The notes under the pieces: generated by a model
Seen by the model: only the letters and a program-made list of their open reading frames with translations
Databases searched by the model: none
Told to the model about the DNA's origin: nothing
Assembly: GCA_000196815.1 (NCBI GenBank)
Contig: FP929003.1
Location: forward strand, 4,239,501-4,303,500
Direction: 5' to 3'
DNA: 64,000 bases
Source of the DNA: Nitrospira defluvii
Lineage (GTDB): Bacteria; Nitrospirota; Nitrospiria; Nitrospirales; Nitrospiraceae
Translations under genes and position numbers: made by a program
In this document: positions 57,307 through 64,000 of the stretch, in pieces
How the letters are laid out: each line of letters starts with the position of its first letter
How positions within the stretch are numbered: position 1 is the stretch's first letter

Positions 57307-60300
57307 CTATTGACCCAGATACCAATATTGCAGGAAGGCCAGCGCGGCGACCAACGTCGCTTGGACGACCGGCTGCTGGTAGAAGGGAACAAAGGCACCC
57401 TGTTGCACAGCCTCGATCTCGTTGATGATCTCCCGCAGGTGATCACTCGACGGTCCCGAATCCACGCCCGGTTCGGCACACTCCTGCCGAGTCAGGGCAC
57501 GATCGAGTTTTAGCTGAAGCGGCGCAAGCACCTTCCGCTTGGCTCCTACTGCGGCCAGATATAACATGCAGGCGCTGGCGAGAGCCACCAGGCTGTTCAC
57601 CGTCAGAACAAGAATCAAGGCCGGGGGAAAATCCCAATTGTCGAAGTAATGACTTCGAGCCCCGATGATCAGGAATAACGACAAGAAGGGATAGAGGATC
57701 CTGCGGTTGACGACCCTCGTCCGTTCGATCATGAGGCGAACCTGCCTCATGGGGTCAAGACCGGTTGCCGACGGCATTTCCTGAATCCACTTGGTGCAAA
57801 GGATCACCGCATCCAACACGGCCAGGTTCAAGATGATCAACGAAAACGCGCTCAGAAAGGTGAGCACCGCGTCGGCGCCGCAGCTGGACTCTCCCCGGCA
57901 GGGAACATACAACCGCCATTCGCCGTCATTCATGAACCTCCACACCGGGAGGACCATCATCAAGTACAGGAGCAGCCACAGCGCGATCCTAACCGTGCGT
58001 TGAGGCCATGTATGGGCTTGGGAGTATCGGGCCCAGAGTCTGCTCGCTTCGCCGGGGTGCTCCTGCTTTGATCCGTGGAACATCCAGTCCACATTCGTCC
58101 AGAACCCCTCCAGATTTCTCCGCCTCCCCTCTCCCACTCCTGCCAGAATTTCCCGTGGAAAGAATTTCTCGGTGAGTTCTTCTGTGTTCACGACCAGATC
58201 GGCACGGGCCTTCATCAGAAAAATAACTGACAAGAGGGTGGCGAACAGCCGGAGTAATTCCGTCGGCCAGATGCTCACGCCGTCGGACCAGGAAAAGGGC
58301 TCATCTTCGATATACTTAAAGTGCAGGACGTGACACCACAAAAACACGATCGCGAGAATCACCAGCGGCACCCAGACCGGCCGAAGTATGCGCCTGAACT
58401 TCTGCAGGCCTCGATCTCGCTCATTCCGAGCCGTCAGCCAGTTCCAGAACCTGGCATGCCCCCATAGCGCCAGAAAACCAAGGATCGTCATGGTAATCCA
58501 GAGCGGACCGATCCGCGCCGGCATTTTGAATGTGACAGCCCCATCTGTTACATCCTGTCGAGTCGGATGGATACTCCTGATCTTCTCGACTGAATCGTCC
58601 ACACTGAGGTCAACTGCGCCATGCCGTCCGATCTCAAAAAGGCGAGGGAGAATCACCCCGCTATACTCCGACGCACCGCCATTACGGCCGTGCAGCAGAT
58701 ATCTGGAAGACTGGTTTTTCTGATTGGACTCCTGCGGGCGATCACTCACCTGGTCGATCGCCCGCAAGACGGCAAAGAAAGTGGACGTTTGAAGAGAGCT
58801 GCGGAAGGGCGGGATGGCCTGCTGAAAGGAAGGATCGAGTTGCAGCCCGAAATGTGACACGACGATCAAGTTGCGAGTCCATTTCTGCTCATCTTCATGG
58901 AAATACCGCGCATCCAGATCCGTGGCAAAGAACAGTACGTTCGGAAACTGCTCCCGGACCGCCTGAAGGATCAGCAGCGCGTCATAGGCATCCCGCCCCA
59001 GGATTCCGATGGCCTTGACCTTGCCTTGCTGTTCCACTTCACCCCGAGTGCCGACACGTTCATTCTCCTGCTCCTCTGCCTTAATTCGAGCGACGAGCCG
59101 TCGGACGTAGTCGAGTTGTGAAGGCCCTTCAGGCCGTTCATACGAAGCAATATCGCGCAGCTTGGCCTGGCCGGCTTCCCTCTTATCCTTGTCCTCCTCT
59201 TTGGGCTTGGATGGGAGCGACTGATCCACCGACACTTCCCCATCCAAGCCGCTCAGGTAGCTATACTGCCTGATATTGAGGGTCCGGGGGGACAAGGTCC
59301 CCGCGCGAAGTCGATCCACCCCGTCGTCCATGGTCGGACAGCGACCGGTGTAACGACACGCCACCGCACTGAATGTGATTGGAAGCGAGCGGGCATAGAA
59401 GGAATCCCACTCTCCGATCAGGGCAATCGCATCTGTGCCGACCCTGACCCGCCTTCGATTGAATTCGCGGAACAGAGACTCGAACAGCACCTCGTCGCTG
59501 TCGATGCTGTATTGAAGAATGAGGCCGGCATCTGACAACAGGTCGAAAAATACCTTTTTGCACATGCCATACGATTCGCACCCCACATCTTGTTGCTGAC
59601 TTCTACTCTTCATTCCGTAGGAAAGTAGTCCGGGCATCGCCGTGGCCCAGGGAGAATACAGTTCGATGGACGCACGATCTTTTCGCCGAGCGTCCTGCCC
59701 CTTCTGCTTTCCCTTTTCAAGCCCTCCAGGCTTACCCTGCTTCTCAATCTCCTGAAGCAAGCTCCGAAATTCGGACGAACTACGAGGGCCCACAAGCTTT
59801 GCGGTGATGTGCGCCTTGAGCTTAGACGGACGAATTTCTGAGAGCAGCGCGTCGATGCGTGCCAGGATAGACTGTTCGGACTCTTCTGCCGCTATCCAAA
59901 GCACAAGCACATGACGGGATTGTTCGGTTCCCGGCGTTTCATCGAATGTCCGGCAGGATGCGAGTGCGCCTCGCCTGTACCATTCATAGGGAGTGGGCAC
60001 AGGCACGCTCAACTCAGGCTTCTGGGGGCCGAAACTCCAGGTGAAGTAGGACAGGGATTGCGTCAGCTCCGGGACATAACATCCGACCTCCAGCGCCGCC
60101 CCGACGGCATAACGGTCCCGGATGCGCGCCTCGCTGTCTTCAACTGAAGACCCTCCCCCTGTCATGACGACCAGTGCCGTGACCAGGCCATTTCGTGTGG
60201 CAATTTCCTCGATCTTTGCTTTGAGACTGCGCAGCCCCTGCTCATCGTGCTGGTCTGCCGTGGTCACAGAGAGTGTCACCTTGCCTGCTTTTTGCAATGT

Positions 60301-60531
60301 GACAGACACCTGCTTTCGGCCCGCTTGATCCCTCCGGACCGCCGCAAACGGGTCCTCCCAGAGCCTCGCCCGGGCCTTCAGTTCACTGGCCGCTCCTTCC
60401 AGACCGACCCCATTCCCGTTCGGCCGCGAACTCTTGAGCGGCTCCTTTACAAACACCATAGCCGCCACGGCGAGGGCCAGGGTCACTGTGGTGGCCAATG
60501 AAAAGGTGGAATCGTCGCCCTTGAAGGCCAT
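57307..60531 (-). CDS. Large membrane protein of unknown function with a receptor-like soluble region
   Basis: 1074 residues from ATG 60531 (TTG 60537 also in frame). One N-terminal transmembrane helix (TVTLALAVAAMVFV, about 15-30), a soluble region of about 640 residues, then roughly eight transmembrane helices (about 672 to the end). Around 507-560 the segment AIGILGRDAYDALLILQAVR, then FPNVLFFATDLDARYF and NLIVVSHFGLQL looks like a Rossmann-type periplasmic-binding or receptor fold; the rest is not recognised. A charged linker (KPKEEDKDKREAG) precedes it. No kinase, nuclease or GGDEF motif is visible. It stands alone between an esterase gene and selO. Confidence 0.75.
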   Translation of the reverse strand: MAFKGDDSTFSLATTVTLALAVAAMVFVKEPLKSSRPNGNGVGLEGAASELKARARLWEDPFAAVRRDQAGRKQVSVTLQKAGKVTLSVTTADQHDEQGLRSLKAKIEEIATRNGLVTALVVMTGGGSSVEDSEARIRDRYAVGAALEVGCYVPELTQSLSYFTWSFGPQKPELSVPVPTPYEWYRRGALASCRTFDETPGTEQSRHVLVLWIAAEESEQSILARIDALLSEIRPSKLKAHITAKLVGPRSSSEFRSLLQEIEKQGKPGGLEKGKQKGQDARRKDRASIELYSPWATAMPGLLSYGMKSRSQQQDVGCESYGMCKKVFFDLLSDAGLILQYSIDSDEVLFESLFREFNRRRVRVGTDAIALIGEWDSFYARSLPITFSAVACRYTGRCPTMDDGVDRLRAGTLSPRTLNIRQYSYLSGLDGEVSVDQSLPSKPKEEDKDKREAGQAKLRDIASYERPEGPSQLDYVRRLVARIKAEEQENERVGTRGEVEQQGKVKAIGILGRDAYDALLILQAVREQFPNVLFFATDLDARYFHEDEQKWTRNLIVVSHFGLQLDPSFQQAIPPFRSSLQTSTFFAVLRAIDQVSDRPQESNQKNQSSRYLLHGRNGGASEYSGVILPRLFEIGRHGAVDLSVDDSVEKIRSIHPTRQDVTDGAVTFKMPARIGPLWITMTILGFLALWGHARFWNWLTARNERDRGLQKFRRILRPVWVPLVILAIVFLWCHVLHFKYIEDEPFSWSDGVSIWPTELLRLFATLLSVIFLMKARADLVVNTEELTEKFFPREILAGVGEGRRRNLEGFWTNVDWMFHGSKQEHPGEASRLWARYSQAHTWPQRTVRIALWLLLYLMMVLPVWRFMNDGEWRLYVPCRGESSCGADAVLTFLSAFSLIILNLAVLDAVILCTKWIQEMPSATGLDPMRQVRLMIERTRVVNRRILYPFLSLFLIIGARSHYFDNWDFPPALILVLTVNSLVALASACMLYLAAVGAKRKVLAPLQLKLDRALTRQECAEPGVDSGPSSDHLREIINEIEAVQQGAFVPFYQQPVVQATLVAALAFLQYWYLGQ

Positions 60532-60674
60532 GGGCAATCCCTGTCTTCAGGCGTCGGGTTCGTTGACGTACCCTGTTACCACTAAGGTGATTCAGCATGG
60601 AATGTGCCACTTTCGGGATGGTTGAACCCAAGCGAAATCGGCCGTTTCTGACACAGTCCTGCGAACTGTACGTA

Positions 60675-62238: not shown

Positions 62239-62607
62239 CTACCGGAAATTGGCTTCGATGTCGGATTCCAACGTGAAGACAAAAATGCGCTCCCCGACGA
62301 CGGTGTCGATGTCGGTAAACAGCGCCGTCACTTTCGCGCCGATCAGATCCATCACCTGTTCACAAAGGCGCTCCCGACCTTGCGCGATGAGGTTCTGCCG
62401 GAGTCGTTTCACCATGTCGATACCTTCGGCCGTCTTGGCCAGTTGCCGTTCTGCGGGTGTCAGCACCCCCTTCAACCGCACGACGAGCATGTCCCGCACA
62501 ATGAAGACCCGAACCTCATCCGGGCCGCGGCCCAGAAATTCCTGCTCGAATTTGATGATGGCCGTCCGGACAGCCGCTTCCTTCTCTCCCTTGCTCGCCA
62601 CAGGCAA
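62239..62607 (-). CDS. DUF2294 family protein
   Basis: 122 residues from TTG 62607 (AAGGG five bases upstream; GTG 62601 is also possible). The frame runs to 62751, but a promoter at 62650-62679 lies inside that extension and the DUF2294 domain starts after it: AIIKFEQEFLGRGPDEVRVFIV, LKGVLTPAERQLAKTAEG and DTVVGERIFVFTL. Unknown function; compact alpha-beta domain. Divergent from the NuoL/DabB-like gene. Confidence 0.83.
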   Translation of the reverse strand: MPVASKGEKEAAVRTAIIKFEQEFLGRGPDEVRVFIVRDMLVVRLKGVLTPAERQLAKTAEGIDMVKRLRQNLIAQGRERLCEQVMDLIGAKVTALFTDIDTVVGERIFVFTLESDIEANFR

Positions 62608-62649
62608 TGTGACCCTTCCCCAATGGTTGATACCGATCACGCGCGGCCG

Positions 62650-62679
62650 ATTATAATCACCGCCATGGACAGACTCCAA
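62650..62679 (-). promoter_or_regulatory. Promoter of the DUF2294 gene
   Basis: On the minus strand, TTGGAG (complement of 62674-62679), an 18-base spacer and a perfect TATAAT (complement of 62650-62655). Transcription would begin near 62643, about 36 bases before the TTG start codon. Confidence 0.6.
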
Positions 62680-62779
62680 CCCCCCTGCAACCACTGTCGG
62701 CAAACGGGCCGGCACGACGCCGGCGACCAGGCCCATCGGTCTTGTCACCAAGCCCTGCGACGCTGACTTTTCACTTGCA

Positions 62780-62935
62780 ATTACAAAGGCGCGCGGCTAC
62801 ATCTACCGTAGTTTTCCGGTGGTGCCGCCGAGAGGCCGTGAATCGCGCGTGGCCCGGACCCACCACATGGATGTGATGAGACAGGCAGTAGGGTCTTGCC
62901 GGTGTTTCCCTTCAGGGAAAGGTCGGGGACAGTGC
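62780..62935 (+). ncRNA. Candidate structured leader RNA ahead of the NuoL/DabB-like gene
   Basis: The stretch between the divergent DUF2294 promoter and the terminator at 62936 has no reading frame with coding character, but holds several short hairpins, including TTTCCC-TTCA-GGGAAA at 62905-62920 and CACAT-GG-ATGTG near 62863. It is followed directly by an intrinsic terminator and the start codon, the order expected of an attenuator or riboswitch. It does not match a riboswitch consensus known to me. No clear promoter was found. Confidence 0.4.
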
Positions 62936-62988
62936 AGGCCAGTCGTTGGCTCCTTGTTTCAAGGACCGTCGGCTGGCCTTTTTCTTTT
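62936..62988 (+). terminator. Intrinsic terminator just upstream of the NuoL/DabB-like gene
   Basis: AGGCCAGTCG (62936-62945) pairs with CGGCTGGCCT (62970-62979) over ten positions with one G-U; an inner hairpin (GG-TCCTT against AAGGA-CC) closes the loop; the stem is followed by TTTTTCTTTT. Only 21 bases separate the end of the T-tract from ATG 63010, too few for another promoter. Confidence 0.8.
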
Positions 62989-63009
62989 CATGAGTGCCAT
63001 GGGGTCGGC

Positions 63010-64000
63010 ATGTCGTTTCTAGCGCTCGTCCCGCTGTTGCCGTTGTTGACGGCCTTCATTGTGATGACCGGCGATCGTGCGGAGCAGGACCAGAATGCCA
63101 GAGCCGGGTTGCTCCCCGTCGCGGCGGCATTTCTCGGGTCTCTCATCGCCCTGGTTGCGGTCACCTCCGGAGATCCGGTCACCATCCAGTTCTACGATAC
63201 GGCCTCCGTCGCCAATCTTGCCTTCCCGATCGGGTTCTATATCGACCGGCTCAGCGCGGTCATGATGGTCCTCATCACCGGCGTGACCATGCTCATCTAC
63301 CGCTATTCCATGGGCTACATGTATCAGGATCGCGGATATCGCCGGTATCTCGGGATGCTCGGCATCACGACCGCGGTGCTCCTCTGCATGGTGTCCAGCG
63401 CCAACCTGGTGATGTTATTTGTCTTCTGGCAGATCCTCTCGTGGCTGCTGTTTTTGCTTGCGCACAACCACGGCCATGCCGCCACCCTGTCCGGCGCGGC
63501 GAACACGTTTACGATGTTGCGGCTCAGCGATGCGGCGTTTCTGGTCGGTATCGTCCTGGCCTACTCGCTGTACGGCACATTTGAGTTCCAGACATTGTTT
63601 GCCCGCGCCGCGGACACGCCCGTCACCCTGTCCCTCTGGCCGGACCTCGGCTGGGAGATGAACGGCGTCACAGCGGTCACGTTGCTCATTTTCGTCGGGG
63701 CCATGGGCAAGTCGGCACAATTTCCGATCCACACCTGGCTGCCGCGCTCCCTCTATGCGCCGACGCCCATCCACGCACTGCTGCACGCCGGCATCATCAA
63801 CGCCGGGGGATTCCTCTTGAACCGTCTGGCCCCGCTCTACGGACTGAGTCCGGCCACCCTTCACGTGGTCTTTGTCATCGGCATGCTCACGGCGATGCTC
63901 GGCGCCACCATGATGTTGACGCAGAACGACATCAAGAAGACGCTCGGCTTTTCGACGATCGGCCAGATGGGCTACATGATTATGGAATGCGGGCTGGGCG
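63010..64000 (+). CDS. NuoL/MrpA-like proton-conducting membrane protein (DabB type), partial
   Basis: Runs off the window with 330 residues visible, all in one open frame. Multi-helix protein with the complex-I antiporter signature: GFYIDRLSAVMMVLITGV, FVFWQILSWLLFLLA, GAMGKSAQFPIHTWLPRSL, ALLHAGIINAGGFLLNRLAPL and KKTLGFSTIGQMGYMI, the last two holding the key Lys/His of the proton path. Stand-alone genes of this type usually pair with a DUF2309 (DabA) partner as an energy-coupled inorganic-carbon pump; whether that holds depends on the next gene, outside the window. Confidence 0.88.
   Translation, partial: MSFLALVPLLPLLTAFIVMTGDRAEQDQNARAGLLPVAAAFLGSLIALVAVTSGDPVTIQFYDTASVANLAFPIGFYIDRLSAVMMVLITGVTMLIYRYSMGYMYQDRGYRRYLGMLGITTAVLLCMVSSANLVMLFVFWQILSWLLFLLAHNHGHAATLSGAANTFTMLRLSDAAFLVGIVLAYSLYGTFEFQTLFARAADTPVTLSLWPDLGWEMNGVTAVTLLIFVGAMGKSAQFPIHTWLPRSLYAPTPIHALLHAGIINAGGFLLNRLAPLYGLSPATLHVVFVIGMLTAMLGATMMLTQNDIKKTLGFSTIGQMGYMIMECGLG

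Follow-up and report, generated by a model that had tools for sequence, protein, structure and literature searches.

Why a strong intrinsic terminator should lie directly in front of a gene for inorganic-carbon uptake is the question raised by the far end of the window, by which is meant the whole stretch of 64,000 nucleotides analysed here (C1:4239501-4303500 of the single-contig Nitrospira defluvii genome, 4,317,083 bases). The gene concerned begins at position 63010 on the forward strand, continues beyond the window end at 64000 and encodes 564 amino acids in total. It is the first gene downstream of the leader and is dabB-like, belonging to the NuoL family by Pfam and NCBIfam, with Pfam identifying it as a Proton_antipo_N/M protein. 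The next genes, read from the ORFs of locus L004, encode a NuoM-like protein (NCBIfam) and then DabA, which matches PF10070 with an E value of 6.8e-258. A divergent gene with an MpsC domain (PF10057, E 5e-36) is located upstream of the leader at 62239-62751 on the reverse strand. A DAB system is recognised by a PF10070 DabA together with a NuoL-like DabB, and the domain matches show that both are present, making this a DAB/Mps-type inorganic-carbon uptake locus. DAB2 has been described as a PMF-driven, carbonic-anhydrase-like CO2 uptake complex (PMC13144422).

The terminator is composed of a stem (62936-62979, forward strand) and a T-tract (62979-62988) reading TTTTTCTTTT, and its end is separated by 21 nt from the dabB ATG, with a probable ribosome-binding GGGG inferred from sequence at 63001-63004. 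The 53-nt segment 62936-62988 folds with -29.3 kcal/mol compared with -12.3 (sd 2.85) for its shuffles (z -5.95), and none of 200 shuffles was as good. Taken as a whole, the 231-nt stretch stands out less than the terminator, with a z of -2.31 and 4 of 200 shuffles as good. An intrinsic terminator is expected to feature a stable GC-rich stem followed by a U-run, and this is met here (UUUUUCUUUU, with a covarying stem). A consensus scanner run over 62600-63100 returned three terminator-like sites against 0.6 expected, recording the 62936-62979 stem only as a 6-bp version, and a single promoter-like site at 62627-62654, upstream of the leader. The preliminary description of this locus had reported a terminator 21 bases before a NuoL/DabB-like start codon, and that claim held in all its parts: stem, T-tract, spacing to the ATG and gene families.

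The reading favoured here, with a probability of about 0.7, is that the leader represents a new class of cis-acting structured RNA, found so far only in the Nitrospirales, which terminates transcription before inorganic-carbon genes and is most likely a ligand-controlled on-switch riboswitch. The ligand, the promoter, the sign of control and direct sensing by the RNA are inferred. Ahead of P1 lies a promoter-like stretch (62766-62803, forward strand as for all features that follow) that is conserved in the genus and consists of the box GAcTTTtnnCTTGCA, TTGCAA (62775-62780), 17 nt and TACATC (62798-62803). TTGCAA and TACATC are putative -35 and -10 elements by inference only; the sigma-70 scanner did not list them, and there is no mapped promoter. 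The 5' domain is a predicted hairpin with an internal loop, P1 (62815-62871), supported by the fold and by genus identity; hairpins resembling P1 were seen, by eye only, at a similar place in many of 60 printed diverged copies (of 103). The 5' strand of the core (62880-62894) is defined by copy tallies and is made up of GAC-A-GGC, the antiterminator strand of P2, followed by GUA and GGGU. The P3 hairpin (62899-62929; CCGG...UCGG in the window copy), supported by compensatory changes, reaches as far as the R pairing with Y, and the 3' strand CAG-UGC-AG-GCC (62930-62940) is near-invariant across copies. The last GCC (62938-62940) is common to P2 and to the start of the terminator 5' arm. The consensus therefore reads P1, linker, GGC-N(1-3)-GUA-GGGY-NN-P3-NNR-CAG-URC-NN-GCC-A, with GCC opening the terminator.

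Conservation within the genus was assessed in 29 genomes, including that of the window, contained in a set made up of this genome and 60 relatives searched with both DNA and protein. An orthologue of dabB (at least 78% identity) is found in 27 of the 29, and the leader is present in all 27; the DNA and protein searches of the same 61 genomes agree on this co-presence. The two exceptions, G006 and G012, have at best paralogues of 46-47% identity and no leader, and both still have DabA. Mean pairwise identity among the 27 congeners is 91.4% for the core (62877-62937), 91.7% for the terminator with its T-tract, 86.9% for P1 (62816-62863) and 86.4% for the promoter-like box (62766-62783), and falls to 76.8% in 62784-62815, 59.4% in the linker (62864-62876), 61.7% in the 19-nt spacer following the terminator and 41.5% in the DNA on the mpsC side. 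The first 52 nt of dabB show 82.3% identity overall and 68.6% at third codon positions. The core of the leader is thus held more tightly in these congeners than the start of the gene behind it.

Beyond the genus, a covariance model built from the 27 genus copies (R1) matched 46 of 197 genomes and recovered diverged copies upstream of orthologues in nine non-genus loci. With E values up to 1 it identified no copy in eight loci with homologues of 50-54% identity, nor in four loci with paralogues. A second model, R2, was built from 23 non-genus copies and at an E value of 0.01 or better matched 129 of 395 Nitrospirota genomes, with up to five matches per genome, 117 of these genomes falling within the order Nitrospirales. 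Outside the order, 12 genomes matched, with E values from 3.8e-9 to 0.0095; only two of these matches were read (L272 in G248 and L273 in G414), and both lack the core. Core letters were checked only in the fetched loci and not in every R2 match. DabA is encoded in 169 of the 395 genomes. Among the 134 DabA genomes of the order, 115 have an R2 match and 19 do not, and R2 also matches two genomes of the order that have no DabA; among the 35 DabA genomes outside it no more than three are matched, none with an E value better than 0.001. In the genus part of this sample DabA is present in 22 genomes and the motif in 20, the exceptions again being G006 and G012. The RNA is accordingly one order's means of controlling some DAB loci and not all. 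The window genome itself has a second DabA locus with a DabB-like protein of 47% identity (C1:1678168-1683005, the L083 region; DabA at C1:1679922-1683005), which lacks the leader and gave no model match.

A search for the exact core pattern in a collection of 84,980 species returned 76 stretches, of which all but two have Nitrospir* titles. The remaining two are labelled Nitrosospira; for L164 this is probably a label error, the sequence apparently coming from the genus of the window, and the label of L152 is unchecked. The listed elements number 179, and removal of the 13 without a core and of repeats left 118 distinct cores. The presence of coreless elements in the list means that model score alone is no proof. 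The 13, which include L272, L273, L259 and L238, were rejected, being interpreted either as terminators alone or as copies in decay, and isocitrate dehydrogenase is not claimed for the gene set, as the element preceding such a gene (L272) has no core. Three stretches upstream of dabA keep a terminator-like arm and have lost the core (L246:1181-1304, L162:5191-5313 and L134:3732-3859); these are perhaps decayed copies as well.

Covariation was measured in two alignments. The smaller comprises 23 of the 25 non-genus copies, one duplicate locus and L128 being excluded, and 93.9% of its cells pair. Nine of its 22 pairs changed on both sides, a number reached by 5 of 500 shuffles, and its covariation score of 0.278 was reached by none of 500 (0.174, sd 0.012), with slid controls at or below 0.104. 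The count of further pair types in this alignment (23 versus 21.0) does not rise above the shuffles, 80 of 500 being as high. The larger alignment consists of 104 distinct rows, fitted to the model, from 110 matches in 100 chosen loci. Here the score is 0.394 compared with 0.213 (sd 0.006) for the shuffles, again with 0 of 500 as high and slid controls at or below 0.113, and compensatory change is found in 18 of 22 pairs. Pairs of P3 exhibit compensatory changes in both alignments. The internal loop, which is unpaired in the model, also changes jointly: for the first G and the base facing it, 93 of the 104 rows have G.G, 5 have A.A, 3 C/A, 2 U/G and 1 G/A, and the second G stands opposite A in every row.

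Pair tallies rest on a strict letter pattern, which 109 distinct copies satisfy and 23 elements failed (13 failed a looser one). Since the strict pattern admits only certain letters, these tallies cannot reveal other mismatches. In 101 of the 109, GUA is preceded at a distance of 1-3 nt by GG[CU], which the other eight lack. The Y-R pair is U-A in 65 copies, U-G in 23, C-G in 19 and U-U in 2, and the G3-C pair is G-C in 104, A-U in 4 and G-U in 1. The GGC/GCC pairing of P2 itself shows no covariation, GCC being near-invariant. Core covariation together with joint changes in the internal loop is what a folded core, and not a mere terminator, would show, and one of the features by which a riboswitch is recognised, a conserved aptamer-like core with covariation, is therefore present. 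Five copies (L265:827-929, L249:728-831, L266, L268 and L264) contain a variant core, GUAAG[AG]U...UAAUAC in place of GUAGGGU...CAGUAC, in which G.G has become A.A in all five and G-C has become A-U in four. These variants precede four SulP genes and one dabB gene, and a changed ligand or affinity is possible.

A second feature of riboswitches, a mutually exclusive expression platform, is met by computed folds only. When the window RNA was cut at four points before the terminator 3' arm, the minimum free energy structure was the P2/P3 core each time, and in the longer cuts GAC.GGC.GUA is paired to UGC..GCC.GUC. The full RNA forms the terminator at -78.1 kcal/mol versus -69.7 kcal/mol with P2 enforced. 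P2 and the terminator exclude each other because GCC also starts the terminator 5' arm. Scripted folds were obtained for 87 of the 118 copies, starting 12 nt before GGC and leaving P1 outside; of the 31 not folded, 23, most of them from the genus, have a terminator that the script's pattern did not recognise, and eight lack GG[CU]. The nascent folds contain GGC/GCC in 73 of the 87 and GUA/URC in 79, leaving 14 without P2, and the full-length folds contain the terminator in all 87 and GGC/GCC in none.

The genes behind the copies were assigned by blastp against reference proteins from these loci, with Pfam applied to representatives only and with the downstream-ORF script examining only the element's own strand. 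The 118 distinct copies precede dabB (77), Mrp operons headed by MnhE (14), SulP genes (12), dabA (9), an LCIB carbonic anhydrase, a CsoSCA-like gene and an unknown 797-aa protein (one each), and three were left unassigned by the script. These three are also dabB loci, bringing dabB to 80: L163 and L124 (continued in L069) are cut by contig ends, and L006 shares 98% identity with the window locus, the script having taken another frame. In the case of L124 and L069 (G034, contigs C23 and C24) the assembly breaks inside the leader, and the two contig ends share a stretch of about 110 nt. An ORF of an assigned kind, the 797-aa orphan included, follows on the same strand in 115 of the 118 copies, its start lying between -11 and +224 nt from the end of the model, with a median of 18. 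A cis-regulatory leader is expected to covary and to stand before related functions, and 114 of the 118 copies precede a transporter, antiporter or carbonic-anhydrase-like family. Since most copies were picked up by scans that took no account of genes, the functions found downstream count as evidence that is largely independent.

Pfam supports the representatives with LCIB_C_CA (E 5e-53, L118), DabA (L115), MNHE and MnhB (L121) and SulP PF00916 in four loci. The CsoSCA_cat match of L200 is weak (E 3e-5 in Pfam; 28 bits against an NCBIfam cut-off of 241). For the SulP protein the best solved relative is 6ki1, named there a low-affinity sulfate transporter, which we take to be the bicarbonate transporter BicA. 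The NCBIfam matches of this protein to SulP, DauA and BicA all fall below the curated cut-offs, and for this reason its substrate remains open. One cluster (L237) unites several of these genes in the order motif-SulP, MpsC gene, motif-dabA and motif-mrp, the mrp operon ending in a dabB-like gene. The common theme of the downstream genes is inorganic carbon, and the carbonic anhydrases, though few, speak against a pure sodium or pH role.

Locus L171 contains a core copy before the 797-aa protein (L171:4013-6600) and a second copy (7337) that precedes dabB. The 797-aa protein has no Pfam or NCBIfam match and is possibly a new carbon-uptake gene product. The same locus has an ORF adjoining a SelO-like ORF, with an N-terminus that by eye resembles that of a 1076-aa ORF in the window (57307-60537, reverse strand), which has no Pfam family and also lies beside SelO.

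In the proposed mechanism, transcription would start upstream, near 62810, and P1 and the aptamer-like P2/P3 core would fold first, with GGC pairing to GCC in P2. Left unassisted, the full RNA would rearrange into the stronger terminator and the genes would be off. Stabilisation of the core, for which a small molecule or ion is the most likely agent, would keep the terminator from forming and let transcription read through into the carbon-uptake genes. Conservation, covariation, position, gene set and competing folds are shown by computation; the promoter, the sign of control and the choice of a ligand over a protein as the stabiliser of the core are inferred. If the on-switch logic is valid, an increase of the signal under carbon limitation is to be expected, unless it is bicarbonate or CO2 that acts, with the opposite sign and through another rearrangement.

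No known family was identified for the element. The window gave no match to Rfam 15 at the gathering threshold, the leader gave only two chance-level matches with E values allowed up to 10 (4.7 and 8.8), and 12 diverged loci gave four matches at E up to 1 (0.16-0.95), none of which lies on the element. The Na+-I (DUF1646) riboswitch was not matched in these searches of window, leader and diverged loci, though inclusion of its model was not confirmed by name. The leader resembles Na+-I in having a compact conserved core beside an intrinsic terminator, a layout in which the held core precludes the terminator, and transporter genes downstream; Na+-I is an on-switch in which cation binding precludes the terminator (PMC9337991). 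The fluoride, ZTP and adenine pbuE riboswitches have the same on-switch layout. The leader differs from such switches in having no Rfam 15 match, in its inorganic-carbon gene set and in being seen only in Nitrospirales so far, and is thus placed as a new class within a known kind of terminator-controlled leaders. Guanidine riboswitches, known RNA switches that have been sought in Nitrospirales genomes (PMC12342949, PMC11410670), belong to other RNA families and other genes. The genes behind the leader are of the same kind as other DAB/MpsAB systems (DabA PF10070 with NuoL-like DabB), but the literature searched contained nothing on a leader RNA or on RNA-level control of DAB or other inorganic-carbon uptake genes, and no paper joining Nitrospira with DabA and DabB. 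Most subscription papers lay outside the scope of this search, and an earlier description of the element in a 2017 survey of 224 candidate RNAs is not excluded.

With these results the remaining claims of the preliminary description can be judged. Its proposal that the gene is attenuated through the leader is supported by conservation, covariation and competing folds, in the absence of a mapped promoter and of data on a response to CO2, and its view that the leader fits no known riboswitch held for Rfam 15 in the window and the 12 diverged loci. It had also suggested that a carbon or redox signal may be sensed if the gene is part of a CO2/bicarbonate pump; the carbon part is supported by the gene set, sensing by the RNA being inferred and no ligand identified. 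The covariation check that it proposed came out in favour by score, which exceeds both shuffles and slid controls, but not by the further-pair-type count of the 23-copy alignment. It had named orthologues lacking leader and terminator as a possible refutation, and all 27 genus orthologues keep both; an independent small RNA, named as another, is disfavoured by the copies upstream of different inorganic-carbon genes. Only one gene had been seen in that description, and the element is now found before a wider set.

The alternative closest to the favoured reading is a protein-dependent attenuator, with the same competing folds but with a Nitrospirales RNA-binding protein stabilising P2/P3 and preventing termination. 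The apparent restriction of the element to one order suits a lineage-specific RNA-binding protein, and several copies within one gene set are, by inference, what protein-read leaders would show. Against it stand the non-helical contacts and the joint G.G/A.A changes in the internal loop, which an aptamer fold would be expected to show; they could equally arise at a protein site, and the protein-dependent attenuator is regarded as unlikely without being ruled out. Less credible still is a known riboswitch in disguise, above all one for Na+, on the grounds that cation coupling is conceivable for Mrp, SulP and DAB alike. Mrp antiporters are indeed among the downstream genes, and the on-switch logic of Na+-I (PMC9337991) is alike. 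Opposed to this are the lack of any Rfam 15 match in the window or the 12 diverged loci and the carbonic anhydrases (LCIB in L118 and, weakly, CsoSCA in L200), which are not sodium genes. Sensing of Na+ by a new fold is not excluded.

Two explanations that dispense with a sensing leader also find little support. An independent small RNA gene could end at the terminator, the operon being expressed separately, and the strong terminator, the conserved body and the upstream promoter-like box would be compatible with this. Distinct copies nevertheless stand directly upstream of different inorganic-carbon genes, with an ORF of an assigned kind behind 115 of 118, and the 21 nt after the terminator leave scant room for a promoter, making this explanation very improbable. 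Leader-peptide attenuation, in which translation of a short ORF chooses between the folds, could draw on start-like codons in the leader, one of which, the GTG at 62838, begins a short ORF in 20 of the 27 congeners. A conserved short ORF would be expected, yet the best shared start-stop pair is found in only 7 of 27, and there is very little reason to prefer this model.

A bolder form of the riboswitch reading is that this is the first class of inorganic-carbon riboswitch, sensing bicarbonate or CO2 directly or else a metabolite of carbon starvation. There are no ligand data, and this form is held to be possible but clearly less likely than not. For the order as a whole, a 2025 comparative genomics study (PMC12342949) noted that lineage IV has additional nuoL/nuoM genes next to Mnh/Mrp, with a possible role in saline and alkaline settings; the terms 'inorganic carbon', 'bicarbonate' and 'carbonic anhydrase' are absent from its main text. 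The shared RNA suggests that some of these clusters belong to carbon uptake.

A single compact RNA of about 110-180 nt, common to DAB, SulP, Mrp and carbonic anhydrase genes, makes a carbon-limitation signal testable in vitro. It also ties genes of unproven function, namely the SulP genes, the Mrp operons and the 797-aa orphan, to one carbon gene set. Should the ligand prove to be bicarbonate or CO2, the leader would represent a novel type of RNA sensor, and, if the reading is true, an inorganic-carbon riboswitch would govern the whole carbon-concentrating gene set in globally important nitrifiers.
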